From assembly GCA_921293015.1 (NCBI GenBank), contig OV121082.1, positions 20,191,748 to 20,255,747 on the forward strand: 64,000 nucleotides of DNA. Direction: 5' to 3'. How positions within the stretch are numbered: position 1 is the stretch's first letter; every line of letters starts with the position of its first letter. Below are positions 6,607-56,010 of this stretch, one piece after another. The notes below the pieces were generated by a model. The model did no database searches. It was given only the letters and a program-made list of their open reading frames with translations, and was not told where the DNA came from. This DNA comes from Phorcus lineatus (lineage: Eukaryota > Mollusca > Gastropoda > Trochida > Trochidae). The position numbers and the translations under genes are program-made.

Positions 6607-6878
6607 TCACCTCCCGTTTGCACAGTGACGATAGTACAAAACCCAGTCTTCTGTGTCAGTTTCTTGATACCATTGCGGTACTTCCATCCAAGTCACGTTG
6701 CTAAGGTTGCACTTATCAGATACTGAGCTGTACTCTACGTTGATGCAATCAAACGATATCTCGTCCAAACATGCTTGCTTGCAAGATTCAACCTTGTCGG
6801 TATAGATCGTTCTGGTGTTATAGGCCAAAATCCCGTAATATTCGTAGGTATGGAAGTCGTTTCCATATTCAGTGCACC
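6607..6878 (-). CDS. Gene 1 exon 3: C-terminal PAN/Apple-like module
   Basis: The acceptor is ctgttatag|GGTGCACTG and the exon runs to a TGA stop at 6607-6609. It encodes CTEYGNDFHTYEYYG, then ESCKQACLDEISFDCINVEY and YYRHCANGR. The six cysteines fit a complete PAN/Apple fold. Confidence 0.85.
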
Positions 6879-16220: not shown

Positions 16221-16495
16221 TTAACCACTCGGCGGTGGGTTACTAGCACAATGGCGATAGTAGAAAACCCATCCTAGAGTGTCTGCAGCTCGATTTCCTT
16301 CTGTCCAAGTTGTGTTGCTAAGGTGGCAAACCCTGGTTTCTGTCTGGTACTCTGCGTTGATGCAGATAAACGATGTTTCATCCACACATGTTTGTTTGCA
16401 ATGTTCGGCCGAGCGGACATAGATGATTACGTTGTTATGGCCTTGAATCCCGTAGTAGTCGTATGCATGGAAGTCGTCTCCATATTCAGTGCAAC
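16221..16495 (-). CDS. Gene 2 exon 3: C-terminal PAN/Apple-like module
   Basis: This exon has no useful internal ATG and is found only by comparison with gene 1. Acceptor tttag|GTTGCACTG; 275 nt to a TAA at 16221-16223. It encodes CTEYGDDFHAYDYYGI, then EHCKQTCVDETSFICINAEY and GWVFYYRHCASNPPPSG. All six PAN cysteines are present and there is no internal stop. Confidence 0.85.
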
Positions 16496-19400
16496 CTAAA
16501 CCAGTTAAAAAATCGTCGTTACAATAAACACATCGCCAAATACTGGAGTATTGTTCACATCATAGCAGACTGGCTTAGTGGTTAGCATGCTGGCTTGTCA
16601 CGCCAATGGTCCGGGTTCGAACCCTGGTGGAGGCACCAAACATTTGTAACCTGGGCCATGTCGTCTGTTGTGTCCCTGGGCAAGACACTTCATCCACATT
16701 GCACTCAGTCCACCAAGCTGTACAATTGGGCACCTGAACAAGGGAAGGCATGGACCTTCACGGTCGCGCGAAGCGCTTAATAGACTGCATCGAAGTACTA
16801 ATCCCTCAGGGTAATAATACTATTTGTGAGCTTTGAGCATGCTCTGTCATGGATATATGCGCGGTACAAGATGGCTATTATTATTATTATTATCATCATG
16901 ATCATCCCTACACCCTTATTCATTCATGTATACACTCATATTTTTTATCTGCAATACATGTTCCCCTAATTATCCATCAATGCCTGCCAGGCGCATTGAG
17001 TACCTTTTATTAACAGATCAGGATTAGAATGATTATGTTCAATAACAACAAGGCTCAGTTGCTCAATAGGCCATCAAACAAAACCTCACTGGATCAACAT
17101 TTTTTATCCACAGATTCATAAAATTTAATTTTAATCCTAATCAGTCTACAACACTCTTTCATTTATTTGGATGAATATCATCCTAAAACGTAGATAGATC
17201 AGGGAGAAAACGTCATTAAGAAAAAAAAAATTAAACTGAAGCAGAGAGAGAAATAGAATGGAATTGAAGAGGATCTGAAAGGTTAGAATAAAACAATATG
17301 AAATTCGTATGATAAAATAACATGCTTAATTTCATACTGTTGGCGTTTGAAGATGAAAATTTGATATTTGGGTCATTCCATGTCGATTCGACCAAAGCCT
17401 CCCAGTTGATGTCACCGATTTTTTTCGTTTTCACACCAAACAGAGTACATATACAGGACATAACAAAAACAATACAAAATATTTTCAGTTTGCATTGGTT
17501 TTGCCGTAAGGGGACTAAATTTGTGACACACAACGCAATTCTCGCCAATACACCACTTTCATAAAACTGTTCACAAAAATTTATTTTGTTTACTTCTGTA
17601 AGTTATTTTTTTGTCAATGTGTTGTAGATATAATACTGTAGCGGCGTACACATATGGTTTTCAGACATTTAAGAAATAACCTGAAGTTTGCATATTACAT
17701 ATTGGGTCAAATTTCAAGCAATTTCAGAAAATGGCCCCTTTTCTTTAAGATATATCAACAAGATGTGAGGGCTTGAGTGATATTAACGTGTATGAAGGTT
17801 GAAAGTAATAATCAGACAGCCCATTCCATAATTCCTATACTCTTTCATCCATCCGTATTTAGTTTGAGTGAATTTAAATATACCCACCCTCAGCAAAACA
17901 CTGAAATTTTACTATATTCAATTGTCTCTGTGCAAAAAGGCGCACCTCACGCAGTCATGAAATTTTTACAGTTTATTCCTCATTATATTAGCTGTAATAT
18001 ATAAAAAAATACCGAGGGTAAAATTTCCTGTTTTCAAGAAATAAATGTTAAAAGATATAGCCCGTTAAAAATCAAATAGGGATTTTAAGGGTGCTTCATT
18101 TTGTATTGTTCCTTCGTTGTAGGTTGCAAACAATACAATTTAATCTTTCTTTCCGTCTTTTCCGTTTGCTTTCCATTCCTTCACCCTCCTTTGGATGATA
18201 ACATTCGCGTGCTTAAAAAATGAAATATTCTCAAAGCAGTTAAACCCAAACTCACTCACTTTTTAACGAGACAATAGGCAAACAATTTCTGCGAAGGAAG
18301 GTACGTTCGAGTGAATGTCTCTGTCAACTACATATTTCAAAATACATTGCTTCTGTCATGTTAGGTGATCATCAATTTCTTGACTGACAAGTAGAAAATG
18401 TACCCAAACGTAACCTGCTTCGCGGAAAACAAAATTGCACAAATGAAAGACATACGAGGCACTGTGGTGTGGTTCTTTTCTAGAACTCTGACACGGATCG
18501 GGAGAATAACATACCTTTCTTTTATCACTTCCTATTCACTTCAGTCGCTTGTTGCCAGTGTCTCGTTGTTTTGTTAACTTGTTAGTTTGACAGGTTGGTT
18601 AATAATTGACAATTGATTAAACGGATGCTGGGTATCAATCTTTAGTTCATTGATTAAGAAGTTTATTTTTAAGCCGGGATGGTTGTGATCATTTAGTTGC
18701 AATGGATACTAATCAATATTAACAAATCACTTTGATTATCACTATAATTTCTTTGTATCACATTTCTGTGTTTCAAAATATGGCGTTGGAGAGATGTTCA
18801 ATTGGTTACTTAACCAAAACAGATTGTCATAAAAGTGCATACACAAAACGAACAGGTTTATTGACAATTGGTAATCTTACAGAAAATGAACGCAGTCTAC
18901 TGTGTGCTCGTGCAGATATGGTGAACAACACTGACACAGATACTGTATGTTTTCATCATCATACATACTTCCTGGAGAAGTATTCTCTTTACCAAACATC
19001 CTGTGTGGACCCATTCGAAAAGCATTTGAACACCGTTTTGCCTGATAAAGCAACGGCCATTAATGATCTTGCTTCTAAGAGGGTTAAACCTGGCCAGAAG
19101 TTGTGTCCCTCGTGTTATATCGAACTTGGTCGAAAACAATCAGAGGTGACCGATCTTGAGCCAAACTACGAAGTTGAGCAGAATGTTACAGAGCTCAGTG
19201 AGCAACTGGAACCCTTCAATCCTGGATTGACTGCTGAAGGATTGACCCCTTTTCATCCACAGACAATCAGTAAAAGAGATCGTGAGACATATCTCAAACG
19301 GAAAGTTGCCCAAGTAGAATCAGCAGTTGTCACCAAAGTTGCAAAAACATTTGATATGAACCCATCAGAACTCTATCCATCTTCAACCAAATGTCCAAAA

Positions 19401-25400: not shown

Positions 25401-27853
25401 TCCATGCATCAATTGATTCATTAACATGATCGCGTGTGAAACAGTATTACCCTTTGTAACTGCTCTCAGTTTCAGTAAGGACAAATCATTTCAAATGACT
25501 GTTAATAGAAAACTTTTACATTATTGATGATGCTTTTTATTCTTCAGATTTAGGTCGGTAAAGTATTCAGGATATATAAGTGAACAAAATACGAATTTCA
25601 CGTTAATAATTATTTATGTTCGTAAATGTATATACAAATGTTCTTTTAAGTTTGTTTAGTAAAGAACTTTTAAAGGCTATTGATGACTATTCAATTTACG
25701 CTACATTTTCTTCAGCGAATGGAAGATTTTTTATATCCTAAATACTTTACGAATGGATATGCAGTTCTCAGTGAAGTCACAAAGGTATCTATACATGCAT
25801 ATGCTTGTTTATTCAATTTAGCATGGACGAAATGGGTTTTGTTTAGTAAACCTGTTTCGACTTCTGACACACTTAAGTTTCAACATTACATATATTGACA
25901 TGCTATTATAATATTATTCTTGTTTCAGCTGACCGAAATAAAATCATTGTTATGGTTTTAAATTCTTAATGTTTCTTTGATTTGGTCAAAATATTATATT
26001 TTCTAGTACAACGATAATTGATATACAATAATAAATATTTTAAAACTTACTGAACGTTAGATATAGAAAATTGAAGGAAAACAAATAATGTTATACCGTT
26101 TAACGCAGTTCCTTAATTTCATCCGTCATTGTATATTAAACTACAACTAATAACTTAAAAAATTATAAAAAATCTGACTGTCAGCCTCAAATTTTACAGA
26201 GGCACTTTTTTGGACAGACATATATTGTTATTTCTACATAAACTCTCAGATGTATAATCTGGTTAATCAAATTAAATAATTATACGGCCAGTATGTATAT
26301 TTATTACATACCCATGTAATCTTACGATAGTAATACGTAATGAAATACAATGAATTCCGTATTGCACTCCTCAATCCGTATTGCACTCCGTATTGCACTT
26401 CTCACGGAACTACTTTCTCAGCGAGAGAGGTATCATGTCAGCTATTTTTAGAACTGTGCCGAACGTCAACGAATGTTTCAAGTTATGAATGTTTATATTG
26501 TATTCAAATGAAATGTTGATATACATGTAAGTGATATGCACGTGTCATTAACGAAATTTTAAACATGTGAACAAATATCTTGCGTCTGTTTTAAAAAAAA
26601 ATATTCACCACAGTTTTGTGTGCACTCTATTGCCATGTGACGTCATAGGTGGAGGAATGTGATGACGTAAGATTTCGTGAAAGGGTTGGCGGAGTAATTT
26701 CTTTAGGTTAAGGCAACACGTAAACACTCTTCCGTGTTCGGCGGCTTTATTTGAAGTAAATTAAACGAAAAAAGGGTATGTAATAAATATAGAACGTCAT
26801 TCTAGTGCATTTTTTCGCTTGTATTGAACTCGTAGATGTCACAAAGAGCAAGAAACAACTCGTTCTGCGAACTCGTTGTTTCTTTGCTCTTAGTGACATC
26901 TACTCGTTCAATACAAGCGAAAAAATGCACTAGAATGACGTTCTATATATATATTTTATTCTTTCTTATTCAGTACAGATATTTCGGTTTCAATTGTTTT
27001 CAAGCATAGATTAGAATGATAGGACCTACCAATTTCGTACAAAGGTAGATGTCGATACACAAATGTTGGATTGTATATTGTAACACTTAGTAAAAACCAA
27101 AGAAACATGCCGTTTTATGTTTCACATAACATAATAAGGATTGTAACCTTATGAGTAAGGGAGTTCCAATTTAAATCTGGGGATAGGGGTATAAACATAT
27201 ACCACAATTTATATTCTTATGTGTGAGGAAGTAAGTTTGAATCTAATAGTGTCGACACAAATAGAATATGTGTATGGCCTTTATGAAGGAATTTGGAGGG
27301 GGTGGGTCGGCAACCTAGGCGTGACTGCTCTATGCTTTCAATTTTACACATCATATATTTTTTTATGACGAAACATCAATTATATTTAAAGAAATGTATT
27401 TAGCAATGTGTTTAAACTTCAAAATAGTCTCTAATATCCCTGATGTTGATTGCGCGATGTGTTTAACCAGTAAATGATTATGATGAGCTGTACTCATTGC
27501 GGTGAAGTACGATGATGACTCTTGAATGAAACATATCTGTCCGTCATGACGTTTGAGTGAAAAAAAATGTTAAAACTGCACATCTGGACGGGACTAAAAA
27601 ACAGTTCATATACTTTACCTGTTGGCGTTTTGAAATAGTCGTATCCTGGTTGAGGAGTGAGTTCTGTCGTGTTCCCATGCCGGGTCAAACTGACCAAACA
27701 GGACATCAGGTCCTCACTGTAGAAGAAGGAAGAACAACCGGCGGTATTCACACAAAGGCGCGCACAGTCGATGTTGCTTACCATGGGCACAAGTTGTCCG
27801 CCATCGGAGATGACGTCGGATAAAATGAGAAGAAAGACATTTTCAGAAAACAT
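16221..27853 (-). CDS. PAN-EB-PAN secreted protein, gene 2 (3 exons, 210 aa)
   Basis: Predicted join of exons 27853-27619, 23614-23492 and 16495-16221 (TAA stop included). It is a tandem paralogue of gene 1, with the same exon phases, identical lengths for exons 1 (235 nt) and 2 (123 nt), and Cys30, 34, 40, 52, 84, 90, 97, 102, 104, 117 and 121 at identical residue numbers. The leader is MFSENVFLLILSDVIS. The second PAN module ends WVFYYRHCASNPPPSG. A frame opens 22 codons upstream, but the ATG aligned with gene 1 is preferred because it starts directly at the hydrophobic leader. Role: probably an extracellular binding protein; ligand unknown. Introns of about 4.0 and 7.0 kb contain a DNA transposon, two SINE families and a TTAA MITE. 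All reading frames are intact, so both copies may be functional. Confidence 0.8.
16566..16893 (+). mobile_element. tRNA-derived SINE, second family (well preserved)
   Basis: tRNA-like head with A box 'tggcttagtggttagcatg' and B box 'ggttcgaaccc'. It is followed by 'gtccctgggcaagacacttc', a widely shared SINE body motif, then 'aggcatggaccttcacggtc' and an (att)n tail at 16873-16893. It lies in intron 2 of gene 2 only 70 bp from exon 3. Confidence 0.85.
18780..20087 (+). CDS. Transposase N-terminal part (frame-disrupted)
   Basis: The open frame begins at 18732; the ATG at 18780 (MALERCSIGYLTKTDCHKS) is the more natural start, as it opens directly into a cysteine-rich region. Zinc-binding-like motifs follow: CARAD...TVCFHHHTYF...SCVDPFEKH, LCPSCYIELG and, further on, CPKCRDF. 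The second half contains 'MLPSCWTIEQTMNEFG', a possible helix-turn-helix, and 'GTHSVCVCQIHQNVKLML'. I recognise this as a multicopy, transposon-type protein known as 'uncharacterized' in many invertebrates, but I cannot name its superfamily. The frame ends at TAG 20085-20087. The same protein continues in another frame (from about 20080) into the downstream ORF, so a one-base indel has split it. Confidence 0.7.
   Translation: MALERCSIGYLTKTDCHKSAYTKRTGLLTIGNLTENERSLLCARADMVNNTDTDTVCFHHHTYFLEKYSLYQTSCVDPFEKHLNTVLPDKATAINDLASKRVKPGQKLCPSCYIELGRKQSEVTDLEPNYEVEQNVTELSEQLEPFNPGLTAEGLTPFHPQTISKRDRETYLKRKVAQVESAVVTKVAKTFDMNPSELYPSSTKCPKCRDFNELITEMKTKFKSSSRSVKMQILTMLPSCWTIEQTMNEFGTTRYMVKQSRALRKQCGFMASPRSYIGHPLPQDVLSRVQQYFENDNISRMCPGMKEFVSVRINGEKVHKQKRLLLGNLKELYVSFKEETSNLYKISFSKFCELRPKWCISSGAPGTHSVCVCQIHQNVKLMLAALPGLNLNIQGLLQKVVCNTQAQECMLYRCDNCPGINALKSVIQSHLEEEV
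20081..21358 (+). CDS. Transposase catalytic part (continuation in another frame)
   Basis: The frame is open from about 20072; the first ATG is at 20204, but codons before it (GLDEEDEIFHKVWVHTDRTN) fit as continuation of the upstream part. Numbered from that ATG, candidate catalytic acids are Asp32 in IILLDFAENYSF and Asp115 in IMYFSDGAASQYKNY. The third region is 'EWHFFATSHGKNACDGIGGT' (about 143-161). This D...D...(D/E) arrangement fits an RNase-H-fold DDE/D transposase. A C-terminal segment (about 270-384) is basic and without known motif. Length with the upstream part is about 860 aa. It is flanked by long inverted repeats. Confidence 0.68.
   Translation, partial: GLDEEDEIFHKVWVHTDRTNLITTSSSPQDFLDVLLRKIDDLTVHHFTAKSQSAFMARLKNQLDDDTAIILLDFAENYSFVVQDAVQGFHWDNSQATVHPVVVYHRQNDELKHLSVAVISDHLKHDCVTVHVFLKHVLHHVKTCLPGIRKIMYFSDGAASQYKNYKNFVNLCFHEADFGLKAEWHFFATSHGKNACDGIGGTIKRFAAKASLQAPLQNQITTPQQLFDWAVISIPATKILFVSKEEIELETENQDLRFSSCSTVPGTRSHHAFIPIGATELAIKRVSQSTESTLVTFRKKEVRKTEITPRTYVALVIDHDWTFGNVISVDEDNEDMIIDVLIPSRIEPQTFKTPRRKAKVTLPFDHVISKVDVDISLRYFKLSPESHKSICQKFKEFASKHFGSNQFASGHFIWLVDIQLDLKIK
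22271..22881. other. Intron 2 of gene 2 between transposon and SINE
   Basis: No gene or further repeat recognised. The outer end of the transposon's right TIR may extend to about 22340. Confidence 0.4.
22896..23205 (+). mobile_element. Full-length tRNA-derived SINE with 14-bp target duplication
   Basis: The tRNA-like head begins gggcgggatagctcagtggt with B box 'ggttcgaatcccgcc'. The body includes 'ggctcggcaactttgtctgc', 'gtaaggtttgggtgcaatgc' and 'ggtttcaccgcaatgcatag', and the tail is 'aatcttgaaagcggcgttaa'. A perfect repeat 'cacgtaaaggaaag' flanks it (22882-22895 and 23206-23219). This is the reference copy for five degraded relatives between 28 and 36 kb. Confidence 0.93.
23492..23614 (-). 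CDS. Gene 2 exon 2: EB/EGF-like module
   Basis: 123 nt with acceptor cttcttccag|AATTCGG and donor ACTA|GTGAGT. It encodes EFGIKCNSAADCSYVNSMCY, then QGRCDCEVGLSFLAHNMSC. Six cysteines. The sequence is longer in the open frame, but the paralogue fixes the donor. Confidence 0.85.
23615..24244. other. Intron 1 of gene 2, exon-proximal part
   Basis: The first ~40 bp upstream of exon 2 resemble gene 1. The rest holds no recognised feature. Confidence 0.45.
24245..24712. mobile_element. TTAA-flanked MITE, copy 1
   Basis: Bounded by TTAA at both ends. The left terminus 'ttaaggtaacacagagta' is inverse to the right 'catactctgtgtccctttaa'. The interior matches copy 2 at 56011-56480 ('atatgcttaacactgccata', 'gataagtttcc.aaatta', 'actgtccggttttcgat'). 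TTAA duplication suggests piggyBac- or Kolobok-type mobilisation. It lies in intron 1 of gene 2. Confidence 0.85.
24713..26640. other. Intron 1 of gene 2, AT-rich, no gene
   Basis: No exon-like or repeat element recognised apart from a triple 'ccgtattgcact' near 26357-26399. The short frame at 25680-25898 has no known relative. Confidence 0.4.
26789..26946. repeat. Long near-perfect palindrome (~77-bp arms)
   Basis: The left arm starts 'atagaacgtcattctagtgc' and the right ends 'gcactagaatgacgttctat'. The arms also share 'cgcttgtattgaac', 'gatgtcac.aagagca' and 'agaaacaactcgtt' in mirror order around a loop of about 5 bp. The preceding GC-richer stretch with TGACGTCA (26640-26700) may belong to the same fold-back element. 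It lies in intron 1 of gene 2. Confidence 0.92.
26947..27618. other. Intron 1 of gene 2, no recognised feature
   Basis: AT-rich intron sequence running to the exon 1 donor. Nothing further seen. Confidence 0.4.
27619..27853 (-). CDS. Gene 2 exon 1: leader + PAN/Apple-like module
   Basis: 235 nt ending ACAG|GTAAAGTA. It encodes NIDCARLCVNTAGCSSFFYS, near-identical in motif to gene 1. The sequence just upstream (27854-28020) resembles 11895-12060 upstream of gene 1, so the promoter/5' UTR was duplicated too. Confidence 0.83.
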
Positions 27854-28097
27854 GACTACTCTTGAAAACCTTACCACACGATGCTTCCCTGATAATTGCT
27901 TGACTAATCTATGTGGCAAAGCCTACCCTTGAACTTATTGATTTTAAATGTTTACCAGGTCGCGTTGTTTTGAAATATTGACTGAACAACGCTTATAACT
28001 TTTTAACTAAGAAACCTGTTTCCACCTACCAACGGCTCTATATATTTAGTATTTAGAAATCGAAGGCATCGTAATGGTTGAGGTGATTTTGGGTTTT

Positions 28098-37361: not shown

Positions 37362-37435
37362 AATTAGTCGTGAACAGTTTCTTGTTTGAATTAATTAATT
37401 AATTAATTCAAACAAGAAACTGTTCACGACTAATT
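37362..37435. repeat. Perfect 74-bp palindrome
   Basis: Arms 'aattagtcgtgaacagtttc' + 'ttgtttgaattaatt', inverted without interruption, centred on a ttaattaa run near 37398. Could extrude as a cruciform or be the footprint of a fold-back element. Confidence 0.95.
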
Positions 37436-40267: not shown

Positions 40268-41008
40268 ATATAAAAATAGCCAAATCAGACTAAAAGGTTT
40301 TAAGTCTTTGACATTTAATGTGATCGGCCAATACAAGGAAGATGTAAAGGTCAGGTTTGTGTCTATATATGGTTTGCATAGATTACTTTTCAGTATCGAT
40401 TCATTATAACTTACGTTGTACATGTTGTAAGGTTAGACTAATACTTAATATGGACAGCACTTTGTTAAGTATTAATAACGAATTCTTTCTATTTCAGGCT
40501 TAAGGCTGGCAAAGGATTATGTTAACAATTCATTGATACCATTTGATAAGTTTCTTTTGAGTACTAATTCATATGAAATACGATCTATTGATATCAGATG
40601 ACCTTTTAGGGTGACATTTATGGAATGCAAATGTATCCCGGGAATGGACTCGAAGAAGTCCTCCGAGATAGATTCAAAAGTTGATCATTCGTAAACAAGA
40701 TATTTGATTCTGTTATATTAACTCTAATGGCGATGAAAATGTGTCTATTGTTACAGACACGAAGAAGCATTTCAGTATCAAGTTCGCTCACGTGGCATGC
40801 AGCGTGCTATGAGTTATTGATGTGTGATACATGATAAGATATTGCCCTCCAAGTTTATCTACTGTAATAACTGATAAACTTTAAATATGAGAATTATGAA
40901 AATTGCGAAGAACATTTGCCATACGGACATACATTGTCTAATTTTATTATTATTATTTAGATATGTGCCTTGTTGAATCAAAAATCCATAATCGCCGGTG
41001 AAGAAAAT
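40268..41008. other. Non-coding part of an ancient repeated unit
   Basis: 40,420-40,870 resembles 57,930-58,360 ('gttagactaatactt', 'aagatatttgatt', 'cagtatcaagtt..ctcacgt') and, in part, 48,955-49,065 ('tactgtaataa'). No open frame is conserved between copies. Confidence 0.45.
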
Positions 41009-41919
41009 TGTAAAGAGAAGTATATGAAATAGTGTAACTATTTGGCCAAATATCTTTTGTTTGTATAATGTCTCAAATAGAAAAATGCAGAGGAAAAACA
41101 AACTTTCCAAAGGTTTTTGAATGGGCAGTACCACGTTTATTCAAAATGTCCTTTCTTCAAATATACAAACAATATCAATGGTACAAGATAAATGTATTAT
41201 CTTCAGAAGGGTAAAGATTTCGTAAGTCTAACCAATCAGTATTAGTCGTAGAAAAACTTATCAAGCAATCCTAATAACAGCTATTTGAAGCATTTTGGAA
41301 GGAAAATGGATTCTCTAATGTTATGTTCGTTTTAGAAATGCTTTTTTTTGATTAAAAACTTAAATATTTTCATTCAAAATTGTGATCGACAGGAAATATT
41401 TCTGTGGGAGATCAAGCGATGGATCCTAGGAGATATCGCTTTGACAGTATATTTTGAACAATACCCTTCAGCCATCAAGTACACAACAATTCTATGACGT
41501 CATAAATATTACGTCGTCTTAGTGCTACGACGTCATAAACATTACGTTGTCACAATGTTATGACATCACCGCATTTGGTGTCTCGGCAAGCCTTTGATAT
41601 TTGTAACTTTTTTAAACACGCGTTGATATATTTGATATCAGAAGACATGTTGGTGACTGAATATGAATATTTGAAAATATCGTACTGTTTGTAACACAAC
41701 TTTTAAATGTGTAAAATATATAGTATGTTGGTTCAAATTGCTTTTGTTTGATATTTTTCTGTTTGAAAGGTTCAGTTTAACCTCATTCTTAATTGAGTAT
41801 AAACCGTTGCCTTTGAAATTCAATTAAAACGTGTCGAACATTTCATTAATCGATTAAAGAAATTAGCCACAATCGTTTCAAGGGACGATACACTAATACC
41901 TTTATTATTTACATAGAGA

Positions 41920-42060
41920 ATACTAAACGAATGGTAATGTGATAACATTTTTATGCAACGAGTGAATAGAATTTGGTATCAGACGAACGAAAGTGTGTCT
42001 GATACCAAATTCCATTCACGAGTTGCATGAAATGTTATCACATTACCTTGAGTTTAGTAT
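41920..42060. repeat. Near-perfect palindrome, ~65-bp arms
   Basis: The left 'atactaaacgaatggtaatg' with 'tgataaca' and 'atttggtatcagac' is mirrored by 'gtctgataccaaatt', 'tgttatcacattacc' and 'gtttagtat'. Loop about 10 bp. Absent from copy 2 of the 3.1-kb duplication, so a later insertion. Confidence 0.92.
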
Positions 42061-42220
42061 TTTATTTATTACTCATCCCCACTTATCAATATTTTTGATA
42101 AACTAATCGTCAAAACAACAGTCAGCTGTTCGCGGAACCGGCGTAAGAATATCAGTCAGTCAAACGAAACACAGAACAGAATAGTTCGCTAATTGTTGGG
42201 TGTCTACATAAGTGACTCGC

Positions 42221-42672
42221 CTAAAAACATGAAACAAAAATCATTTTGGTGAACAAGTATTGCATTTTTAAGAAATTCATTGATACAACTAATGCTAACA
42301 AGCAACGAAAAATGTCATACCATTGTGCACCCGATACGTGAGTCGTGACGTCATCGGAATGTGACCTCCTTCTAGGCCAGTCAGTTTTAAAAGTTGGCGT
42401 AACGTACAGTGTCAGCAGTTGAGGAGGATTGATAACATTGACAAGAATAACAGAATTGTTGATAGGACCCGCAAATATTGAACTACGGGAACGGGAGTTG
42501 CAAGATGTCATGTTCAGATTGTCTGCTTGTTAAGGGGGAAGCGACAAGTTGGATGGAACAGGTGATGGAAGGGCCAGGCTGTAAGGCGTGGAACGGCCGG
42601 CAGAGGGGGGACGTAAACACAACTTGCGACGGTACAGAAGTTGGGCGAGTGATCATAAAACTATGTGAATAG
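42221..42672. other. GC-richer patch with opposing short ORFs, unknown
   Basis: Frames of 96 codons (42221-42511, minus) and 64 codons (42478-42672, plus) diverge from overlapping starts. The patch is less AT-rich than its surroundings and not obvious in copy 2 of the duplication. I recognise no domain; either frame could be part of an exon but there is no support. Confidence 0.2.
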
Positions 42673-45150
42673 TGCTGGTTTTCAGAAATATGAGACTGAT
42701 TATTGACACTTGTATATTTTTTATTTCTGGATATTCGATCACGTCTCGTTGAGAATGAAAAATTTGAAAGTCGCCATTTTCTAACTTACAAGTCACGTGA
42801 TTGTACGCGATGTCATATGACGTTCGAAAGTACATGCATGGTATCACACATGTGTGTTACCAACTCATTGTTATCTAATGAGTGATATCACCACGGTTGA
42901 GTAATAATTGTTATTAGATGTTTCTATGCATGATTGAATAGACACGTGTATCCGAAAATCATTATTATCGCCTTAAGATATCTATATTCCCTCTTTTAAG
43001 GGGCTTTAATTAAAATTGTGTGCCAAACTTTCATCAACAGTGAGTAAGATGAAAGGAACATTTAAAAATCACTTAAACACTAAAAATAAAACAAAAAAGG
43101 TTGTTACCTTTCTAGTTCTAATCTTGGTTATAATGTAAAAAATTTTCTATTCAAGCATACCCTAATTAATTCCTTTTGATCTTGTAAGTCAATATTAACC
43201 TGCATCATCAAAGTCTTAAGGCTATACGTCTGTACTAGCTCAACCTCTGCACCTATCTTTTCTTGCTTGTTTTATCATTTTCTCTTTCCAGTTTAAGAAC
43301 TAAGTATTGCGGGATATTTACTTGCAATACTACATATGGCCAAAAATATAGGGGTGAACCTGATTATGTAGGGTTATAAGAGCAACATAATAGCTTTTAA
43401 TTATTATAACATGAAATACTAAGAATTATTCAGGTTTGGGACCATTAACGCCATGCTTTTTACTGCCCATGTCAAAGTTTTTTTCCATAATCTACTTGTG
43501 CATCTCATTTGTATGCTGCCTTTATAGTTTGAATCAGCAAGAGTACAACACTTTTTCACATCATTTCGTAATCAAACAAGAGCCGTTGATTGAATCATCA
43601 ATATGGTTTGTGTTATTGCAGATAGTGTTGTCAGAAATATAACAATGCGAGTTTTGATTAAACTCTTGTGAAATTGGTTCAAGTTAATCATTTATATCAT
43701 TTCCGGATGACAATTAGGTATACACAACAGGGAATGCTTTTATGCCGGATACTTCTGATTACATATTTATGACTGAAGTATTTGTTTTTAGGCTCAGTTT
43801 TATTGGTTTGGAAAATTCTATTGGAGGAAAACTTGCATTCAGTGTTTTTAAAGTGTTTATCATGAGTTACCAAAGAGTAATCAATGAGGTAAGTTTTTCA
43901 ATTTTGTAACATTTTTTAAGCTGAATAATACTATTTTGTAATGAAACTGATCTCAGATCTCAGCTGTTTGATTAAATCAAGTAAAATTCATGTTTTTGGT
44001 AATATATCCCAATCAAACACTCCACTTCTTCAAATGATTCAGTTCATTTCCATTGAACTTGTTAAAGAATTGAATAATTCTTCATATCGAAAGAGGTATG
44101 TATATAATATGTATAATATATTGTAAAGAGAAGTATATATAATAGTGTAACTTTTTGGCCAAATTTCTTTTGGTTGTATGCCGTCCCAAATAGAAAAATG
44201 CAGATGAAAAAAAAACTTTCCGAAGACATGATGGTCTTGAATGGGCAAAAGCGCGTTTATTTGAAATTTCATTTCTTGAAATCTCCAATCTCCAAGAAAT
44301 ATTAATTCAGATGCAACTAAATACAATTAGAAATCGCACATTAAACATAAAAAAACAACACCCACCGAAGCTGGAGACTGCTCAATCCAAACTATTTTTA
44401 GACGCGTTTGCTTCCGCTGTCGACCGAGAATTAACGGATATTACCGATGTTCCTTCCGAAGTGGGACGATGTTGCTTCCGTTAGGGACTAAAAATCTCTG
44501 TTATTACCGGTTTTCACCGATGTTGACGTCTTTGTTTCGCTATTAAGCTGATTTCCTTCCATTATGGAAGCTTTTCCTTCTCTAAGCAATGTTTTCCTTC
44601 AAATTTGATGCATTTCCTTCAATTACTTAGAGGGGCCTGTAATTGTATTTGCTGAATGTATATCTTCAGAAGGTCAAACATTTAAAAACTCAACGCAATC
44701 ATTTGTACTCATTCGTAGTCGTATAAAAAATTATGAAGCCAAACAAAATGGCAGCTATTTTGAACAGGCTATTTTTTATGTGAACACCTTTTAAGCATTT
44801 TGGAAGGGAAATGGATTCTCATTGTTAACATTTCTGAACATGATATGTTCTGTTTAGAAATGCTTGATTTAAAACATCGTCTTGCCAAAATACTTATTTT
44901 CGTATCGTTTTTCAGTTTGTCTTCAAAAACGTGCATCTGTCCCTTTAAAGGTTTTAATTAGTTTTTGATTAAAGCAAATTCTTGATAAATTCTCTCCATA
45001 AAAACATTAGTAGTTAGCTGAATATAGAATATTAACAAATTTACAGTAAATCAGCTAAATAATTCATCATTTGATAAAAGTCTTAAAAATTAGTGATATT
45101 ATGTTCATAAATAATATATTTTAAGACATACATTTATATATATATATATA

Positions 45151-45182
45151 AATGACTACATTGTCTATGACGTCACGTCATT
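45151..45182 (+). repeat. Inverted repeat, left copy (32 bp)
   Basis: Begins aatgactacattgtctatga and ends with a TGACGTCA-rich stretch. Exact reverse complement of 45608-45639. Confidence 0.95.
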
Positions 45183-45556
45183 GTGGAACTTGTGACCATC
45201 TAATAGAGGGGAAATCAATTAAACTCTCTAAAAAACATGCGGAGTTCAATGTTTATACCAACATGAACTGTAGTGCCCGAAATGTTATTTATCTAATCAC
45301 ATGTCAGGGATGCCACGAAAAATATATTGGCCAAACAGAGTATCTAAGGGGAAGGGTGAGGGTACACAAACAACAAATTAAGGACCCAAACACCCGCTGT
45401 ATACCCCTCAGTGCACACATAGACTCGTGCGCAAAAGGAAAAGCAATTAAATTTACAATCTTTCCTTTTTATCAACTGTCAACAGATGATCCCATGATGC
45501 GAAAAATAAAGGAAGAATTCTTTATTAAAAAATACTGTTCATCATTAAACAGGTAG
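45152..45556 (+). CDS. GIY-YIG endonuclease domain of a Penelope-like element
   Basis: 134 codons. Residues 45-62 (NVIYLITC.GC..KYIGQT) are the GIY and YIG motifs with a cysteine pair between them (C51, C54). R66/R68 and H72 lie in LRGRVRVHKQQI, a basic helix with the catalytic Arg position. The 'EEFFIKKYCSSLN' near the end (121-133) provides the conserved Glu and the closing motif typical of Penelope-like endonucleases. CGTC at 11-14 may add to a zinc site. The first seven codons derive from the inverted-repeat terminus, so the ATG is accidental. The frame is intact but isolated from any RT domain, so it is a remnant rather than a working gene. Confidence 0.72.
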   Translation: MTTLSMTSRHCGTCDHLIEGKSIKLSKKHAEFNVYTNMNCSARNVIYLITCQGCHEKYIGQTEYLRGRVRVHKQQIKDPNTRCIPLSAHIDSCAKGKAIKFTIFPFYQLSTDDPMMRKIKEEFFIKKYCSSLNR

Positions 45557-45607
45557 AGCGTAATCCTTACACAAGCTCTTTGTACATGTCCAGCATTGTG
45601 ACGTCAT

Positions 45608-45639
45608 AATGACGTGACGTCATAGACAATGTAGTCATT
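45608..45639 (-). repeat. Inverted repeat, right copy (32 bp)
   Basis: Exact inverse of 45151-45182. It lies 52 bp past the GIY-YIG stop and its last bases form the 5' strand of the ribozyme-like stem I. Confidence 0.95.
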
Positions 45640-45673
45640 CTCCCTGAAGAGTAAATCGAAACATGTAGGAGAA
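45638..45673 (+). ncRNA. Possible minimal hammerhead ribozyme motif
   Basis: The core CTGAAGA (45644-45650, fits CUGANGA) is followed by a very short stem II (g...c, 45651/45657), GAAA at 45658-45661, a minimal stem III (c-atg) and a UA dinucleotide at 45666-45667. It is enclosed by a 6-bp stem I, ttctcc (45638-45643) with ggagaa (45668-45673). Such stem-III-poor hammerheads are known in Penelope-like elements. Stem II is weak here, so activity is doubtful. Confidence 0.45.
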
Positions 45674-45838
45674 AATGTTGCGTGCTGTTGTTTTTTATCA
45701 ACGCTTTTAACTATGAAGACTGTACACTTGATTTAACTTTCACCCTTAAATATATATATATCACCGCATTTGGAGTCTCGGCAAGCCTTTTACTTTGTAA
45801 CTTGTATCAACTCGCGTTGATATACAATGTATTTGACA

Positions 45839-46020
<182 letters not shown>

Positions 46021-47400
46021 GTTTATACACTGTATTGCGTTTGTTCAAATCGCGATTGTTTGATTTATTTATGCAAATTTCAAAGGTTAAGTTTAACCTC
46101 ATTGATGCGAAAGTCATTTCAAAGGACGATAAAATGAATCATTTAATTCTATTGTGTCAATGCTATTGATGTTTATATGCATGATTGACTTGACGCATGT
46201 ATCCAAAAATCTTTATCATTGCCTTAAGGTGTTTAAATTCCCTCTGGAAAAAGGCTTTCTATGAAATTGTTTTGCCAAACTTTCATCAATATGGACTAAG
46301 ATGAAAAGGAAATAATGAAGACACTAAAAACAAACAAAAGAGATAGTTACCTTTCTATTTCAAACCTTTATTATTATGTAAACAGTTTTTCTTAACAAAC
46401 ATATCTTAATTGATTCCTTTTGATCTTGTAAGTCAATGTTAAGCTGCTTCATCAAAGTCTTTACGCTACTGCACTAGCTAAACCTCTGCGCCTATTTTTC
46501 CTTTCTTGTTTTATAATTTTTTCTTTCAAGTTTAAGAACTAAGTATTTCAGGACTTTACTTGCAATACTACACATGGCCGAGATACTGGGGAGAACCTGT
46601 AGGGTTATACCAGAATAATAAAGTAGCTAATACTTGGCGAAAGTAAAAGAAATAATTATCAGGTTTAGTAACATTAACACTGTTTCAGCCCGTGCTTTGT
46701 AATGCCTGTGTCAAAGTTTTCCCATAATATTCTTGTGCATCTCATTTGTATGCTGCCTTTATAGTTAGCATTTAAATCTGCAAAAGTACAACACTCTTTC
46801 ACAACATTTCGTAATCAACACACGAGCCGTTGATTGAATTGTCAATATGTCTTGTGACAATTGACAATTAAGTAAACACAACTGGGAATGTAGTATTCTC
46901 TGGATACTTATTAATGACCGAATTATTTTTTCTAATACTAATTTTTGTTGTTTTGGAAAATATTATTGGAGGAAAAGTTTTATTCAGTGTTATAAAAAAT
47001 GTTTATTATGCAATAATTGTTTATATGTAGTTTCCGTCTTTACGATAAAATATCGATAGGTTAGTATGGAAGATTTTTAAAGCTGAATAATATAGTTTTG
47101 TTAATGAATCTGAGAACAATGATCTCAGCGGTAGAACGTTTAATCAAATCTAGAAAAACCAATGTTAGGGATAATATCCGCTAATTGAACATGTTATTGT
47201 GCTTCTCAAAATGATTCAATTCATTTCCTTTTAACTTGCTAATTAGTAGAATAATTGTTCTTATCAAAAGAAGGGTATCGATTTGAATAAAACAAAAAAG
47301 GTTTATGAACTGAATGCTTGATTACTTTGCTAGAAATGCAGTGCAATTCGAAACATGAAAACCATGTTAAACTAGTTGCAAAAATAATCGTTTATGTTTA

Positions 47401-49597: not shown

Positions 49598-52500
49598 TTT
49601 TTTTATAACTTTATTCATTTTTGTTCATGTATATACAAATTCAAAACATGCATATCAATAGAGAACAGACATTTCAACATAATAATGGACAAACAAATTA
49701 AATGTACAGAATGTATTTGAATTACAAAAAAAACCCCAAATTATTCATTGATTGGAATTATAATCTGTGGATGTACATGATACTTTTTTCATAATGATGT
49801 CTTATTGAAAAAATCGCTTAAAACGAGAACAAATTGTGACATGATGACCAGAATTTCATGAATTTTGAATAACTACATTGAGTATATGCAGAATATTTGT
49901 CTATGTTATATATATTGCGAATGTCATTTTTAATGTATGGGATGCTTGGTAGTTTATTTTGTTGTTTTGATTTAAAGATATTGTATTTTATTATTATCAG
50001 AATCAGATTTAGAACATTATTTCTGTGTTGTGGGTATCCGAAGATGGCAGTTTGTTTTGATAAGTTTAATTTACACTGTGTTTTTGATTCGATCCAATTT
50101 GTCATTTCTAACCATATATTTTGCGAGATTTCGCAATCATAAAACAAATGGAGCAATGTTTCAGCGCTTTCACCACAGAAGTCGCATTTTTCATTGTCTT
50201 TATAACCCATTTTTGTCAATAAAGTATTTGTAGGTAGGATTCTGTGAATCAAACGGTATTGGAACCATATATGGTTACTAGCTGAATGGCATTTGTGAGG
50301 GGATTGGTGTATTAATTTCCATTTATCTTCTGTAATAGTACAGTCTAGGTCTTTTTCCCACTTTATTTTGTATCTTAATTTTGTGTCGTTTATGTTTTCA
50401 AGTTGCAATATATCGTAAAATTCCCTACATCCAGTTTTATTCCCTATTAAATTTTCAAGGAAATATGGTAATATAGGATATGGCTGCTTACAGTTTATAA
50501 CAATATTTTGTGATTTTGTGTATTGTTTTACTGCTGCGATGATACCTGCATATTGAAGAAAATTTGTCTTAACATTAAACTTTTTTATGAAAGTATCAAA
50601 ATCAAGGTACTTTCCTTTTGAGTCGATAAGATCGTTAACATACTTTACACCTCCACTTTCCAGTCTTTCAACGTGTATGGATTTTCCGTTTACAGTAATA
50701 TTAGCATTATGCCACAGCGGTTGGGTTAGTATATCATTAGCAGTTTTTGTTTTCTTTCCTTTAACTGTTAAGAATTTCCCCCAGGCTTTTAGTACATCTC
50801 TCCAAAAGGCATTTTTCCTCACTGTCATAACCGTTTCACTGATATAAGATTCACTTTTTTGTATCATATTTGATAGGTTAGTTGAGATATTTTTATTGAA
50901 CAAGTTTCTTTGACAATTACTTGCTGAGTTATGCAGCCGTCTTATCCATGAAAGTTTCTGTGACATGATGATGTTCTTAATGTTAGGCGCTCTGATACCT
51001 CCCTTTTCAAATGTGTTAGTCAAAACACTTCTTTTTATCTTATCTGGTTTATTTTTCCATATGAATTTATAACATAGTCTATTTAGTTCATTTATAATTT
51101 CGTCGCTAGGATTGGGTAATGATGAAAAAAGGTGATTAAGTTTTGGGAGCAATAGGCTCTTCAACACAGTGTTCCTGCCTAGTGGTGTTAAATCACGTGC
51201 AAGCCACATGTTCATTTCAATTTTTATTTTCTTTAGTTTATCTTTGTAGTTTCTTTCAACCATTTCTGCCAAATTATGTGTGAATGTTATTCCTAAGATT
51301 TTGAAAGAAGTTTGTGACCAGTCTAAATTCCAATTATCACAGAGAGAGCGTTTTTCATACCTTTTTGACCCTATCCACATCACTTGTGTTTTTGAAGGGT
51401 TTATCTTAAGACCTGAGAATTCTGAATACAATTTTAGGGTTTGCAGGGCATTTTGTAGACTTTTTTCGGTTCCGTCCAATATGAGGGTACTATCATCAGC
51501 AAATTGAGATGTAAGATATTCAACTTCACCAATCTTTATGCCCTTTATCTTTTGGTTATTTCTAAGCATAATGCTAAGTATTTCTGCACATAAGATGAAA
51601 ATATAAGGAGAAATTGGATCACCTTGCCTGCACCCCCTTGATAATTCGAAAAAGCTAGAGCCGAAGCCATTAACGAGAACGCTTGACTTTATATCTTTAT
51701 AGAATGTGTTAATCCATTTTATAATTGATGACCCAAAATTAAAATACACCAGAACCTTTTGAATGAAACTCCAATCTACCGAATCGAAAGCTTTTTCAAA
51801 GTCTATAAAAACCAATAGACCCGGTATTTCCATACATTCAGAATAGTCAATGATGTCGTAAATCAATCTTGTACATTCACCAATATATCTCTTTGGTATG
51901 AATCCCTTCTGATCTTCATTGATTATGTCTGGTAAAACTGACTTGATTCGATTAGCAAGGGTTGCTGATGCAATTTTATATGAAACATTTAAAAGTGATA
52001 TAGGTCTCCAATTTTTCAAGTGATGTTTAGCTTTGTTAGCTTTTGGTATACAAGTTATCAAACCCTGTTTCTGGCTTACAGATAATTCTCCTGTACGGAA
52101 GCCGTAATTTAATGAGCGTAGAAGATATCTGTTCAAATCGTGCCAAAAAAACTTATAAAACTCAACTGTAAATCCTGATGGACCTGGACTTTTTTCATTT
52201 TTCATTTTTTTCAATGTATTTAATACTTCTTCATATTTCAGCTCTCCTTCCAAATCTATTTTTTGTGATTCTGTTAGTTTTGGAATATTTAGTTTCTGAA
52301 ACATATTTTGCAAATCGACATCTCTACAAGTTTGTTTAGTATACAGATTCTTATAGAAAGTTTTCGTCTCGAGTAAGATATCTTTAGTTTTCGTTGCTAC
52401 AGTTCCATCCTTTTTTTCCAATTTACATATTGCTTTATTGAGAAAGTTTCTATTTTCTAATGACAAAAAGTATTTTGTTGGTTTCTCACCTTTTTCCTTC

Positions 52501-53165
52501 CAGTTGGATTTTGATCGAAGTATTATTCCTTCAGTTTTAATATTATTAATAGTTTCTAGTCTGTCATTGGCTAGTTTAAGATTTTCAGACAACTCTTCCT
52601 TAGTCTTGATATTTTCTGTTTTATCTAAGTCATTATGCATTTTCTCTATTTCATCACGGAGTAATTGTTCTTCTTTTTCTCGAGATTTCTTCTTTTCGGA
52701 AGAATATTTTATAGTAAAACCTCTGATCATTAGAAGCAAAGTTTCAAAAAAGAGTTGGTCATCAATATTTAATTTTATACTACCATCTTCATATTGGCCT
52801 ATTTTATATTGATCAGTTGTTGATTTGATCACATCTTTTATATGCTTCACATAAATTTCGTCGTGTAACAATGAATTATTAAATTTCCAAAAACCTTTAC
52901 CTCTTTCAATATCACTTATTTTCAATGTAAGCCAGATTGCTGAATGGTCTGATCGATATGCCGGGTCTATACCTGCCTTAACAATTGAATTTTCTAAATC
53001 TCTGGATAGAAGAAAGAAATCAAGTCTAGCCTGCTTAATTGGTTTAGATTTTCTCCAAGTGAAACGTTTACAATTTTTGTTAAATTCTCTCCAAGGATCA
53101 ATGAGGTTTTCCTCCTCTATAAATTCTAGAACAACATAGATAATAGTCTTTTGTTCCATATTTTT
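49598..53165 (-). mobile_element. 5'-truncated L1/Tx1-like LINE with poly(A)
   Basis: Minus-strand insertion of about 3.57 kb. The 3' end shows 'gaataaagttat' followed by a run of ten A (plus-strand T run at 49602-49612). The 5' end is cut inside the endonuclease domain near 53165. I could not identify a target duplication because both ends are T-rich. Placed between 48.9-kb and 54-kb blocks that are 1.6 kb apart in a related unit (58.3 and 59.9 kb), so it apparently interrupted such a unit. Confidence 0.85.
49818..53159 (-). CDS. LINE ORF2: partial APE endonuclease + reverse transcriptase
   Basis: 1113 codons without a stop. Residues 1-95 are the C-terminal part of an APE-type endonuclease (IDPWREFN...FTWRKSKPIKQARLDFFLLS, then RSDHSAI at 69-75). 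Residues about 150-230 are a charged coiled-coil-like linker. The RT domain spans about 300-620: SPGPSGFTVEFYK (324-336), NWRPISLLNVSYKI, KGFIPKRYIGE, the catalytic FIDFEKAFD (451-459), RGCRQGDPISPYIF (508-521) and FADD (553-556). A C-terminal CDFCGESAETLLHLFYDC knuckle closes the protein. The motifs suit the L1/Tx1 group; the exact clade is uncertain. The intact frame implies recent insertion, but loss of most of the endonuclease and the 5' UTR makes it non-autonomous. The ATG is internal to the original protein. Confidence 0.9.
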   Translation of the reverse strand: MEQKTIIYVVLEFIEEENLIDPWREFNKNCKRFTWRKSKPIKQARLDFFLLSRDLENSIVKAGIDPAYRSDHSAIWLTLKISDIERGKGFWKFNNSLLHDEIYVKHIKDVIKSTTDQYKIGQYEDGSIKLNIDDQLFFETLLLMIRGFTIKYSSEKKKSREKEEQLLRDEIEKMHNDLDKTENIKTKEELSENLKLANDRLETINNIKTEGIILRSKSNWKEKGEKPTKYFLSLENRNFLNKAICKLEKKDGTVATKTKDILLETKTFYKNLYTKQTCRDVDLQNMFQKLNIPKLTESQKIDLEGELKYEEVLNTLKKMKNEKSPGPSGFTVEFYKFFWHDLNRYLLRSLNYGFRTGELSVSQKQGLITCIPKANKAKHHLKNWRPISLLNVSYKIASATLANRIKSVLPDIINEDQKGFIPKRYIGECTRLIYDIIDYSECMEIPGLLVFIDFEKAFDSVDWSFIQKVLVYFNFGSSIIKWINTFYKDIKSSVLVNGFGSSFFELSRGCRQGDPISPYIFILCAEILSIMLRNNQKIKGIKIGEVEYLTSQFADDSTLILDGTEKSLQNALQTLKLYSEFSGLKINPSKTQVMWIGSKRYEKRSLCDNWNLDWSQTSFKILGITFTHNLAEMVERNYKDKLKKIKIEMNMWLARDLTPLGRNTVLKSLLLPKLNHLFSSLPNPSDEIINELNRLCYKFIWKNKPDKIKRSVLTNTFEKGGIRAPNIKNIIMSQKLSWIRRLHNSASNCQRNLFNKNISTNLSNMIQKSESYISETVMTVRKNAFWRDVLKAWGKFLTVKGKKTKTANDILTQPLWHNANITVNGKSIHVERLESGGVKYVNDLIDSKGKYLDFDTFIKKFNVKTNFLQYAGIIAAVKQYTKSQNIVINCKQPYPILPYFLENLIGNKTGCREFYDILQLENINDTKLRYKIKWEKDLDCTITEDKWKLIHQSPHKCHSASNHIWFQYRLIHRILPTNTLLTKMGYKDNEKCDFCGESAETLLHLFYDCEISQNIWLEMTNWIESKTQCKLNLSKQTAIFGYPQHRNNVLNLILIIIKYNIFKSKQQNKLPSIPYIKNDIRNIYNIDKYSAYTQCSYSKFMKFWSSCHNLFSF

Positions 53166-56010
53166 CGGAACAAAAATTCAAAAAGGATCTTAGGTTGCAT
53201 TTTTCGTCATGTTTATAAAGTTCAAATACATAAAAGCTATTCAGAACTCTTTTCTTGAACACTTTAAGAATATGGCTTCAATTCTGTAAGAATTCATACA
53301 AACCAATAGATACCCATACCTGATCCGAAACATCGAATTTATCTTGAAGAAAACAGCACCAAAGCCTAAGGTTGTGAGCTTAGGAGAGATGGCCATTGCA
53401 CTCGTTTTTTTGGACAAAACGTTTTCTTCCTAGCCAAGCTATGAACAATTCATATCATCGTTACAAAGCCTATTTTTCAATAAATCATTTCATATCTATA
53501 GGATACTGTTAACATTTACAGTGAAAGGCTCTGTCATTCCTGTTGATTTGATTGACAAGAAATAATGTCTTACTTTCATTCGACAATTTAATCTATTCTT
53601 AATCTTGATTGGAAACATTCTAATCTTGTGATGACATATTCCTGAAAAAGGAAAAACTGTTTGCGTTTCAATTTCAATTCATTATATATGCCTACAAGTG
53701 CATTATTGTGTTTAACATACACAATCTGATTCTTTCTTTTCTTCAGACGTTTTTGTCGACCAAAAAATGTAAAATTTTTCCTTTAAACATTATAAACGAA
53801 AAGACCAAACGAATATTTTTATCCTTCAGGCTTTACTATCGTTTTATCGCTTTATTATCTTCATAAACTTCAAAGTTTCAATTTTGCCTCATTCCCTTTT
53901 GTTTTATCTGGAAGTCATCTCAATAGAGTCAATCATTACCTTTTAATCTCATACAAGCCTGTCATGCAGTTGATAATATGATGAATTGAGAAGATATGCA
54001 AACTTCATTAAAGTGGATATAACAACAAATAAGACACATAATTCCTTGATGTCAGGTAAAATCCCGCAAATCATTGCCTTGAAATAATATCATGCGTGCT
54101 TGATGTTACATTTGCAAAAGTGTCAACATATTGTGTATCAAAAGTATCATAAACCTTCATTAAAATGAATGAAACTGAAAACTCACATAGAAATAAAGGA
54201 ACAAATAAGAAGAATGTTATTTCTTTCAGCTTCACACCCGATAATTAAGCTGTATTATGTTAAAACAATTCATGCTTTGTGTTTGATTTAGTCATATAAT
54301 CTTAATTTGTTTCATTAAAGTATTTCGCTCTTCGCATCTTCACTTGCCTTGAGTTATTTGTGTATCAAAGTCTTCTCAAATCTTCGATTAACACTTGATT
54401 TACACTTCCAGCCCCAGCGTCAACACGTATTTAAAGATTAGATATCGTATTTAAAGATTAAGCCGTGAGGGTATATTTGTGTTTTCTAGCATTCCATAAG
54501 GTTCACAAATTCTTTTTATAACCCTTGTGTGAAAATTAGTTTCTGTAAAGTTCCCCAAAAGACTGAAACAAAGAATAGGTTAAGAAAGAATTCTTATTAA
54601 ACTGTACACGTGGACAGATGATTAAACTTTATATTTGGGAAACGATTGAACTTTAAAGATCTAAATGTGAAGAAAACCGTTCTTCAGTAGAAACATGTGC
54701 GACGATTACTTAATTCTTTGTTGTTTCTATTTTGTTAAGTAAAACAGTTTGCATTATTCAATTCACAGAGAGATAAGCAACACAGAAGATGATACGAGAA
54801 ATTAGTTTACAATATATAGATTAGATACATAATGAATAGTAATCAAGAGGTAGACATAAATCTATTCAATCACTATTCGATGAAGTTACTAAAGCTGTTT
54901 TCAATTAGGAGAATATAGTATCAAATTCATAAATGGCGACTACATGATCAAATTGAAAACTTACCCGACGTAATTTTACATTTAACTTTTTCTGTTGATG
55001 AGATGCAATTTAATAGAATCAACCAGACTGGACAACAGCGTCACGTCAAGACGTGAGACAGCAAGGAATGGTTTGCCTCAGATGTGTAAATATGGAGTGT
55101 CCCGTTGAATACAAACATCTGACTTCTCAAGATCTTCATAAATGTTAATCATAGAAAAGGAAAACCAAATGCTATAAACATATTCGTAATTAAATGGCTA
55201 AGCTCGTTTTTGCACCCTCAAATATTCTGGCAAATAATGACATTCCTCATTGACCAGCCTTGTGAGTTTATAAGAGGCAATGTTTGTATATTACATTTTA
55301 TAACGTGCAATACTTACCAAAGCCTGCATAGTGCATTCTTTATGTTTCTAGATGCTGCTTTTTTAATCAATACGAACGGTTTTTAAGCACTATTTTGTCA
55401 TAACGTTATATTTCAAATGGTGATGCTATATGCATCATTTTCCATAACTCAAATAATCTAAAGGAGCTCACACTAAAATGGCGGCATGCAGTTCTTGTTT
55501 GATAAGCGACTATGGATAATCGGGTTGAGTAATGACATATCTTACCCTCATGAGAAAGTACATTTTACATAAACTATTGGGAAACAATGGGAAAACTATG
55601 AACAAAGAATTAAAATAAGTGCTACAGTGAATGTGTAAGAACTATTGAATTAAGATTTTGGTTATAAGGTTAGATAACAGCAAAACCAATGTGAGTGATA
55701 ACATCAATATCCAGACAACATTTGTACAGCCTTCCATTGTCATGACTTCGCTGATAAAATCATCATCTCTCTATGACACATCATGTGAACTAGAAACTCG
55801 TTTCTTTAAAAGGAAAATAGAACATTATTTATTTATTTCATTTAAATCCTTACTCATTGGAACACAACCACTTGTGAAAGGATGCAATACTCAACTGTTA
55901 CATGGTGATGGTCAATCATAACACATTAAAACAAAAAGAATAAAATTATTTTATGGCGTAAAATACATTTTACTGAATTATATTTGTATTATGTTACCCC
56001 GAAAGATACA
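53166..56010. other. AT-rich, no gene; diverged copies of neighbouring blocks
   Basis: 53,960-54,380 loosely resembles 59,880-60,260 ('gtggatataac', 'caaataaga', 'gccttgagttatt'), and 54,900-55,090 resembles 61,860-62,080 ('gttgatgagatgcaattta', 'tgcctca.at.tg'). No exon recognised; the frame at 55658-55921 is unsupported. Confidence 0.4.

Follow-up and report, generated by a model that had tools for sequence, protein, structure and literature searches.

A 5'-truncated Penelope-like insertion with an inverted end in Phorcus lineatus, and a one-tail rule among its relatives

Introduction

How does an intact nuclease frame come to lie between two perfect inverted repeats with no reverse transcriptase (RT) beside it? 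The question is raised by a locus in a 64,000-nucleotide stretch of Phorcus lineatus DNA, here called the window (C2:20191748-20255747), for which a preliminary description had offered two readings: a truncated copy of a Penelope-like element (PLE) with an inverted terminus, or a self-contained, non-autonomous nuclease cassette. We find that the window copy is one young insertion of a Penelope-like retrotransposon resident in this genome, truncated at its 5' end and placed in a (TA)n tract. The lasting value of the analysis lies in a family-level rule on the ends of such insertions.

Anatomy of the insertion

The inverted repeats are exact over 32 nt (45151-45182 and 45608-45639), as had been described, and can be widened to 35 nt at 97% identity with one mismatch (45151-45185 and 45605-45639). 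An arm match of 32 nt is beyond chance; with simple repeats excluded, the window holds two further exact inverted repeats of at least 32 nt within 700 nt, at 37362-37435 and at 26787-26948, the latter being a MITE-like 162-bp element with perfect 43-bp inverted ends. The intact frame reported between the arms was likewise confirmed: it starts inside the left arm, is open over 45152-45553 (134 aa), ends before the right arm with a native TAG stop at 45554-45556, and matches the GIY-YIG family PF01541 with an E-value of 5.8e-07 and 30.2 bits (Pfam cut-off 22.6). Around the GIY-YIG motifs, C51, C54, H72 and H89 form what we take, by eye, to be a CCHH zinc-finger pattern. The structure predicted for the 134-aa frame from its single sequence has a mean pLDDT of 42.5, too low to be of use, and PDB sequence searches gave no meaningful match. 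No relatives of the nuclease or of the motifs were found in viral contigs, prokaryote genomes or phages, which is expected, since the element is of the animal type.

The identity of the locus is given by a full-length copy, L009, which measures 3,723 bases (3.72 kb) from its start to the end of its tail and serves as the reference below (r1-r3723, corresponding to L009:846-4568). In this one full-length copy, r1-69 and r3655-3723 are direct terminal repeats of 97% identity, which is the pseudo-LTR (pLTR) arrangement of Penelope-like elements. A 785-aa frame, upstream of which there is a separate one of 205 aa, carries the GIY-YIG domain (PF01541) at its C-terminus, at residues 696-759. FDVKNLYSNIP, GTAMGTKMAP and RRFLDD in the L009 frame are, as read by eye, presumably reverse-transcriptase motifs; a search of L009 for the Pfam RT domain gave no match even at an E-value of 10.

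When compared with L009, the window copy resolves into r3156-3723 in direct orientation and r3615-3581 inverted, which bears out the first of the two readings, that of a truncated copy with an inverted terminus. At the same place, the protein reads KCKRGNCGTCDHLIEG in L009 and SMTSRHCGTCDHLIEG in the window frame; judging from these sequences, the window frame retains the native endonuclease from CGTC onward, joined in frame to about ten residues from the inverted arm. The RT region, correctly noted as absent from the unit, is missing from the window copy by truncation. At the left junction, ATT, the last 3 nt of the exact 32 of the left arm, is common to the native sequence and is followed by one mismatch and then TG. 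The right limit of the insertion lies at about 45744-45747, approximately 70 nt beyond the end given in the preliminary description, and the copy indeed sits between (TA)n tracts. Taken together, the window copy is almost certainly a truncated PLE copy whose inverted end was generated upon insertion. The features of the locus are the following.

45135..45150, no strand: (TA)n tract, left flank and target; many ends of sister copies likewise adjoin (TA)n
45151..45185, minus strand: inverted 35-nt piece of the element's own putative promoter region, r3615-3581; its junction is unique in the genome
45152..45556, plus strand: chimeric open frame; its first codons, about ten, are the inverted piece, and the remainder is the C-terminal GIY-YIG endonuclease of the Penelope-like protein
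45180..45747, plus strand: direct part of the Penelope-like copy, r3156-3723, 98% identical to L009
45597..45624, plus strand: TGACGTCA-type palindrome with an 11-bp hairpin fold, immediately 5' of the likely transcription start; putative promoter role
45605..45639, plus strand: native (right) copy of the 35-nt segment
45635..45641, plus strand: TCATTCT, resembling an initiator; many short sister copies have their 5' ends here (cluster at r3611-3616)
45638..45673, plus strand: minimal hammerhead-like motif of type I together with its helix I arms; the cut is predicted to follow 45667
45714, plus strand: short 3' terminus (r3690), at which many sister copies end
45715..45744, plus strand: 30-nt tail (r3691-3720), carried at the right end of the window copy
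45748..45761, no strand: (TA)n tract, right flank and target
41284..41630, no strand: diverged paralogous locus of a local tandem duplication, without the insertion; boundaries not base-precise

The last of these lies in a local tandem duplication, about 3.2 kb long and diverged, in which 41007-44099 and 44120-47278 are 67-90% identical in pieces. The alignment of the left flank with the paralogous locus at 41284-41630 is no better than chance in its decisive part (72 of 500 shuffles were as good), and this locus therefore backs the insertion just loosely. We also considered whether the left arm could be old flank akin to the TGACGTCA-rich paralogous tract, and rejected this: the tract gave 37, another host site 39, and the best matches in 20 simulated windows 31-41. 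Set against shuffles of the TGACGTCA-rich tract alone, the resemblance to the left arm had seemed real (2 and 0 of 1000 were as good); we take it to be a common host motif. Sites resembling TATGACGTCA are clustered in the window, with 27 matches against 4.2 expected (up to one mismatch, both strands, palindromes counting twice), for example at 10909-10944, 11217-11249 and 41493-41568, and some have the CATTGTGACGTCAYAA context found in the element's putative promoter.

Elsewhere in the window, an open frame of 1119 aa on the minus strand (49821-53177) contains RVT_1 and zf-RVT domains and is apparently an intact LINE-type ORF. Three separate PAN-domain open frames, also on the minus strand (6610-6894, 16224-16559 and 27497-27922), are probably exons.

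Copies in the genome

We searched the window's own assembly (957.8 Mb, 74 contigs) with a 540-base query, which returned 363 candidates, of which 40 were scored; the window itself aside, the scored matches are 85-98% identical. Those covering the nuclease, other than the window, all begin at query base 30 or later, and the left arm (unit bases 1-29) is in place in none of the 39 other matches scored among the 363 candidates. A pattern of 28 bases spanning the left junction was matched once in the genome when up to 3 mismatches were allowed. Since the junction is single and the scored relatives lack the left arm in this position, the unit is not a family. The preliminary description had proposed a search for further copies with the same borders and a comparison with full-length relatives, naming a single-copy unit, or full-length relatives that show the left repeat to be unrelated flank, as evidence against its reading; both count against the cassette here, the left junction being single-copy and the left repeat being foreign to the element at this position in the scored relatives.

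Perfect identity of the arms had also been read as a sign of a recent event. By itself this is weak, because a segment of 35 nt that is 97% identical to the left arm occurs at 12 other places in the genome. A young age of the window copy is better indicated by its 98% identity to L009 together with its open frame. We took 36 loci with about 4 kb upstream of the nuclease; they contain the other 39 scored matches and make 37 copies with the window. Five of these (the window, L009, L032, L017 and L011) have 84 or more of 120 five-residue words in common with the window nuclease within one open frame, and in the remaining copies the nuclease frame is broken, diverged or further truncated. We take the open nuclease frame of the window to be the remnant of a young copy and no selected gene.

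Hammerhead-like motif and 3' ends

The hammerhead-like core said to follow the unit is present at 45644-45667, with a helix I of 6 bp and a CTGAAGA...CGAAA core, and is the sole match in the window to a strict scan requiring a helix I of at least 5 bp; in a control, the same scan matched in 1 of 60 simulated 64-kb sequences. The motif contains a CUGANGA...GAAA core, a helix I and a UH cleavage site, as a minimal type I hammerhead does, and a short self-complementary ACATGT stands where a stable helix III would be. An Rfam search returned no hammerhead match for the window motif, and the free fold of the 43-nt hammerhead region is no better than that of shuffles (z -0.63). Penelope-like elements have been described in PMC7761336 with minimal hammerheads without helix III. 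We classify the window motif as minimal type I hammerhead-like, with self-cleavage as a prediction. Including helix I arms and allowing up to 3 mismatches, it has 197 matches in the genome (104 forward and 93 reverse), against 0 for the reversed control.

Direct-copy 3' termini at the 36 loci fall into two main groups, with 13 at query positions 594-597, 15 at 558-569 and 8 elsewhere. The two main termini are r3690 and r3720, 30 nt apart; counted from the predicted hammerhead cut, they are 47 and 77 nt downstream. Among 26 single-ended copies chosen by hand, the tail is present in 12; L020, L032-L034, L037, L038, L042, L044, L050, L067 and L069, whose right end is lost or unclear, were not used. 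As judged by eye, (TA)n directly adjoins the right end in 23 of 31 copies, consistent with a preference for AT-rich targets, the exceptions being L015, L022, L028, L030, L033, L038, L040 and L042. At the other end, the bin r3610-3619 holds the starts of 23 of 94 pieces, with a cluster at r3611-3616 (window 45635-45640) that is partly shaped by the hammerhead search, in which pieces starting much after r3616 are undetectable. This cluster lies beside TCATTCT, which we take to resemble an initiator (Inr), and 3' of the TGACGTCA palindromes; it is likely the 5' end of the element RNA, that is, the transcription start.

A different, canonical-looking hammerhead, CTGATGAGTCAATA...TATTGACGAAATACTAGTA or a close variant, occurs in the flanks of L014, L029 and L038 and possibly represents a retrozyme family; Rfam at its gathering threshold gave no match for it. 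At L059:1798-1999, an inverted hammerhead piece adjoins a tandem row of three direct ones, with spacings of 57 and 45 nt.

Inverted ends and the one-tail rule

An inverted piece lies within 20 nt of the 5' end in 19 of 37 copies (the 36 loci and the window). In 11 of the 19 (L009, L012, L014, L016, L017, L024, L025, L026, L028, L036 and L041) the piece includes the 3' end, and these copies are outward-facing head-to-head pairs; in the other 8 (L010, L013, L015, L019, L020, L033, L035 and the window copy) the piece is internal to the element. At least 10 opposite-strand pairs of hammerheads lie within 5 kb of each other among the matches listed, and all ten are head-to-head. For Adineta, PMC3846280 reports inverted pLTRs and 5'-truncated members bounded by them, and a curation guide (PMC8969392) mentions inverted pLTRs as well, so the anatomy of the window copy is of a known kind.

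With 31 further hammerhead sites added to the locus set, minute inserts of about 160-220 bp came to light that consist of nearly nothing but two outward-facing hammerhead ends (L046, L047, L072 and L074). L052, L058, L064 and L065 are also small head-to-head inserts, composed largely of two outward hammerhead/tail ends. The small head-to-head inserts sit mostly on TA microsatellites, and L072 on CA/GT.

We examined 22 two-ended copies, picked together with their end positions by eye, and scored the tail by script (at least 13 of 30 positions and at most 2 of 400 shuffles; L059 passed narrowly, with 14). The tail is present at exactly one end in 20 of the 22, at neither in two (L068 and the composite L075) and at both in none. 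If the ends were independent, with 12 of 26 tailed, about half of the copies would be discordant; for 20 or more of 22, p = 6e-5. L028, whose right end is lost, L051, L060 and L076, with one end short of r3690, and L054, L061, L063 and L071, lacking two clear 3' ends, were excluded, as was the window copy. In six copies (L014, L016, L024, L025, L041 and L070) the shorter piece carries the tail and the longer one does not, and their tail thus was not copied from the longer piece of the same insertion. Host repeats are common to some flanks, with ten flank matches between insertions, several of them between L009 and L014, which differ in ends and lengths; we take the 22 copies to be separate insertions.

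PMC3846280 remarks on a tail at one of the inverted pLTRs in Adineta. Neither a quantified one-tail rule nor a two-strand explanation was found in print in a limited literature search. For the question of PLE integration, with its inverted ends and optional tail, the window family is useful: the surroundings of the 197 hammerhead matches record the reaction. With the count of 20 in 22, the vaguely "optional" tail becomes a prediction open to test, that of an asymmetric complex acting on both DNA strands.

Origin of the inverted end

To explain the window copy as a whole, we favor a truncated PLE insertion that probably received its inverted end by way of two cDNAs. The element's enzyme would cut the TA tract, and each target strand would then prime its own cDNA: one strand a product of about 565 nt begun at the tail start site, the opposite one a very short product begun in the promoter region of an element RNA. 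These two products would be joined at their ends via the shared ATT, which would bring an ATG in frame with the nuclease by chance. At the level of the family, both sides of the cut TA tract would prime cDNAs, one per start site, and these would be truncated at unrelated points and then joined. In vitro, according to PMC11167929, the PLE protein PAc cuts AT-rich DNA, cuts and extends both target strands, and starts reverse transcription internally at two adjacent sites that define a tail of 30-40 bp. From the one-tail count, together with these published start sites and the extension of both strands, we infer that many insertions are two convergent reactions using one start site each. That PLE insertions often consist of two convergent target-primed reactions with asymmetric sites, the inner (r3690) on one strand and the outer (r3720) on the other, is a proposal that we hold in even balance; asymmetric site use would leave a tail at exactly one of two outward 3' ends and, if true, would account in one scheme for the inverted pLTRs, for the optional presence of the tail and for the head-to-head inserts of about 160-220 bp. 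In PMC11167929, the top and bottom strands do not differ overall in their start site; this would agree with the use of either site on either strand and gives no direct support. The window copy itself fits a rule of two start sites only in part: its right end is tailed, and its left end is without a tail and at r3615, at neither r3690 nor r3720. In the opposite sense, r3615 falls within the cluster of 5' ends at r3611-3616.

This left end counts against the favored explanation, as the window copy is no clean example of the rule of two start sites, and a fold-back of one cDNA at the palindromic promoter region would yield an identical sequence. In such a fold-back, a single first-strand cDNA, truncated in the nuclease region, would fold onto its own promoter segment via ATT, copy 32-35 nt and be sealed to the TA tract. 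The 3 nt common to both parts at the junction, followed by a mismatch and TG, agree with this, as does the palindromic nature of the segment, and self-priming has been proposed for Adineta PLEs in PMC3846280. The closest analogue of the window's left arm, an inverted promoter piece at L063:1730-1875 that is reached via an (AAT)n run, also has the look of a fold-back and speaks against two cDNAs. Fold-back gives, however, no reason for the stop at r3615 beside TA, and as a general mechanism it conflicts with the six copies in which only the shorter piece is tailed. We regard it as possible for the window copy, if rather less than probable, and lean slightly toward two cDNAs over a one-cDNA fold-back. 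A further point against the favored explanation as a whole is that the RT identity of L009 comes from motifs read by eye, with Pfam silent.

Classical twin priming on one RNA, described for LINE-1, would suit L010, L013, L015, L019 and L033, whose inverted pieces lie entirely or largely 5' to the direct part. The window copy differs: its inverted r3581-3615 falls within its direct r3156-3723, so that one RNA would have to be copied twice over this segment, and we consider twin priming very improbable there. More improbable still are two further explanations. A mobile, self-contained GIY-YIG cassette with 32-bp terminal repeats would account for a frame that begins in a repeat and for a domain score above the Pfam cut-off; the test for several copies with the same borders failed, with one copy in 958 Mb, and this, together with scored relatives that lack the left arm in this position and mostly have a broken or shortened nuclease frame, refutes the cassette within this assembly. 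A DNA transposon or MITE with a captured nuclease would fit perfect inverted repeats and the TA on the left, but it is eliminated by the missing target-site duplication (the left flank is TATATATATATA, and to the right of 45639 stands CTCCCTGAAGAG) and by relatives such as L009, where the right arm lies inside the element. We give both next to no credence.

Comparison with known systems

The window copy belongs to a known class of retroelements, of which it is an ordinary genomic fossil. Pen2/Pen2a of Adineta vaga, as portrayed in PMC3846280, shares with it 5'-truncated copies bounded by inverted 3'-end pieces, an optional tail (31 bp) at one inverted pLTR, a GIY-YIG domain and palindromes near the pLTR start. 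The inverted piece in the window differs in being just 35 nt long and in ending short of the hammerhead motif; a long inverted pLTR is lacking.

Poseidon PAc of Anolis carolinensis has in common with the window family AT-rich targets, a hammerhead motif and two RT start sites that define the tail, as PMC11167929 describes it. The start in PAc lies 85-92 nt past the cut (cut 26 bp and main start 111-118 bp into the ORF), which is near the 77 nt seen here. The PAc ORF begins inside the hammerhead, whereas no ATG so placed was found in the window family. Animal non-LTR retrozymes, as described in PMC7761336, share the type I hammerhead motif; they are non-coding repeats of about 150-300 bp, usually in tandem, whereas the window copy holds the coding remnant of an autonomous element.
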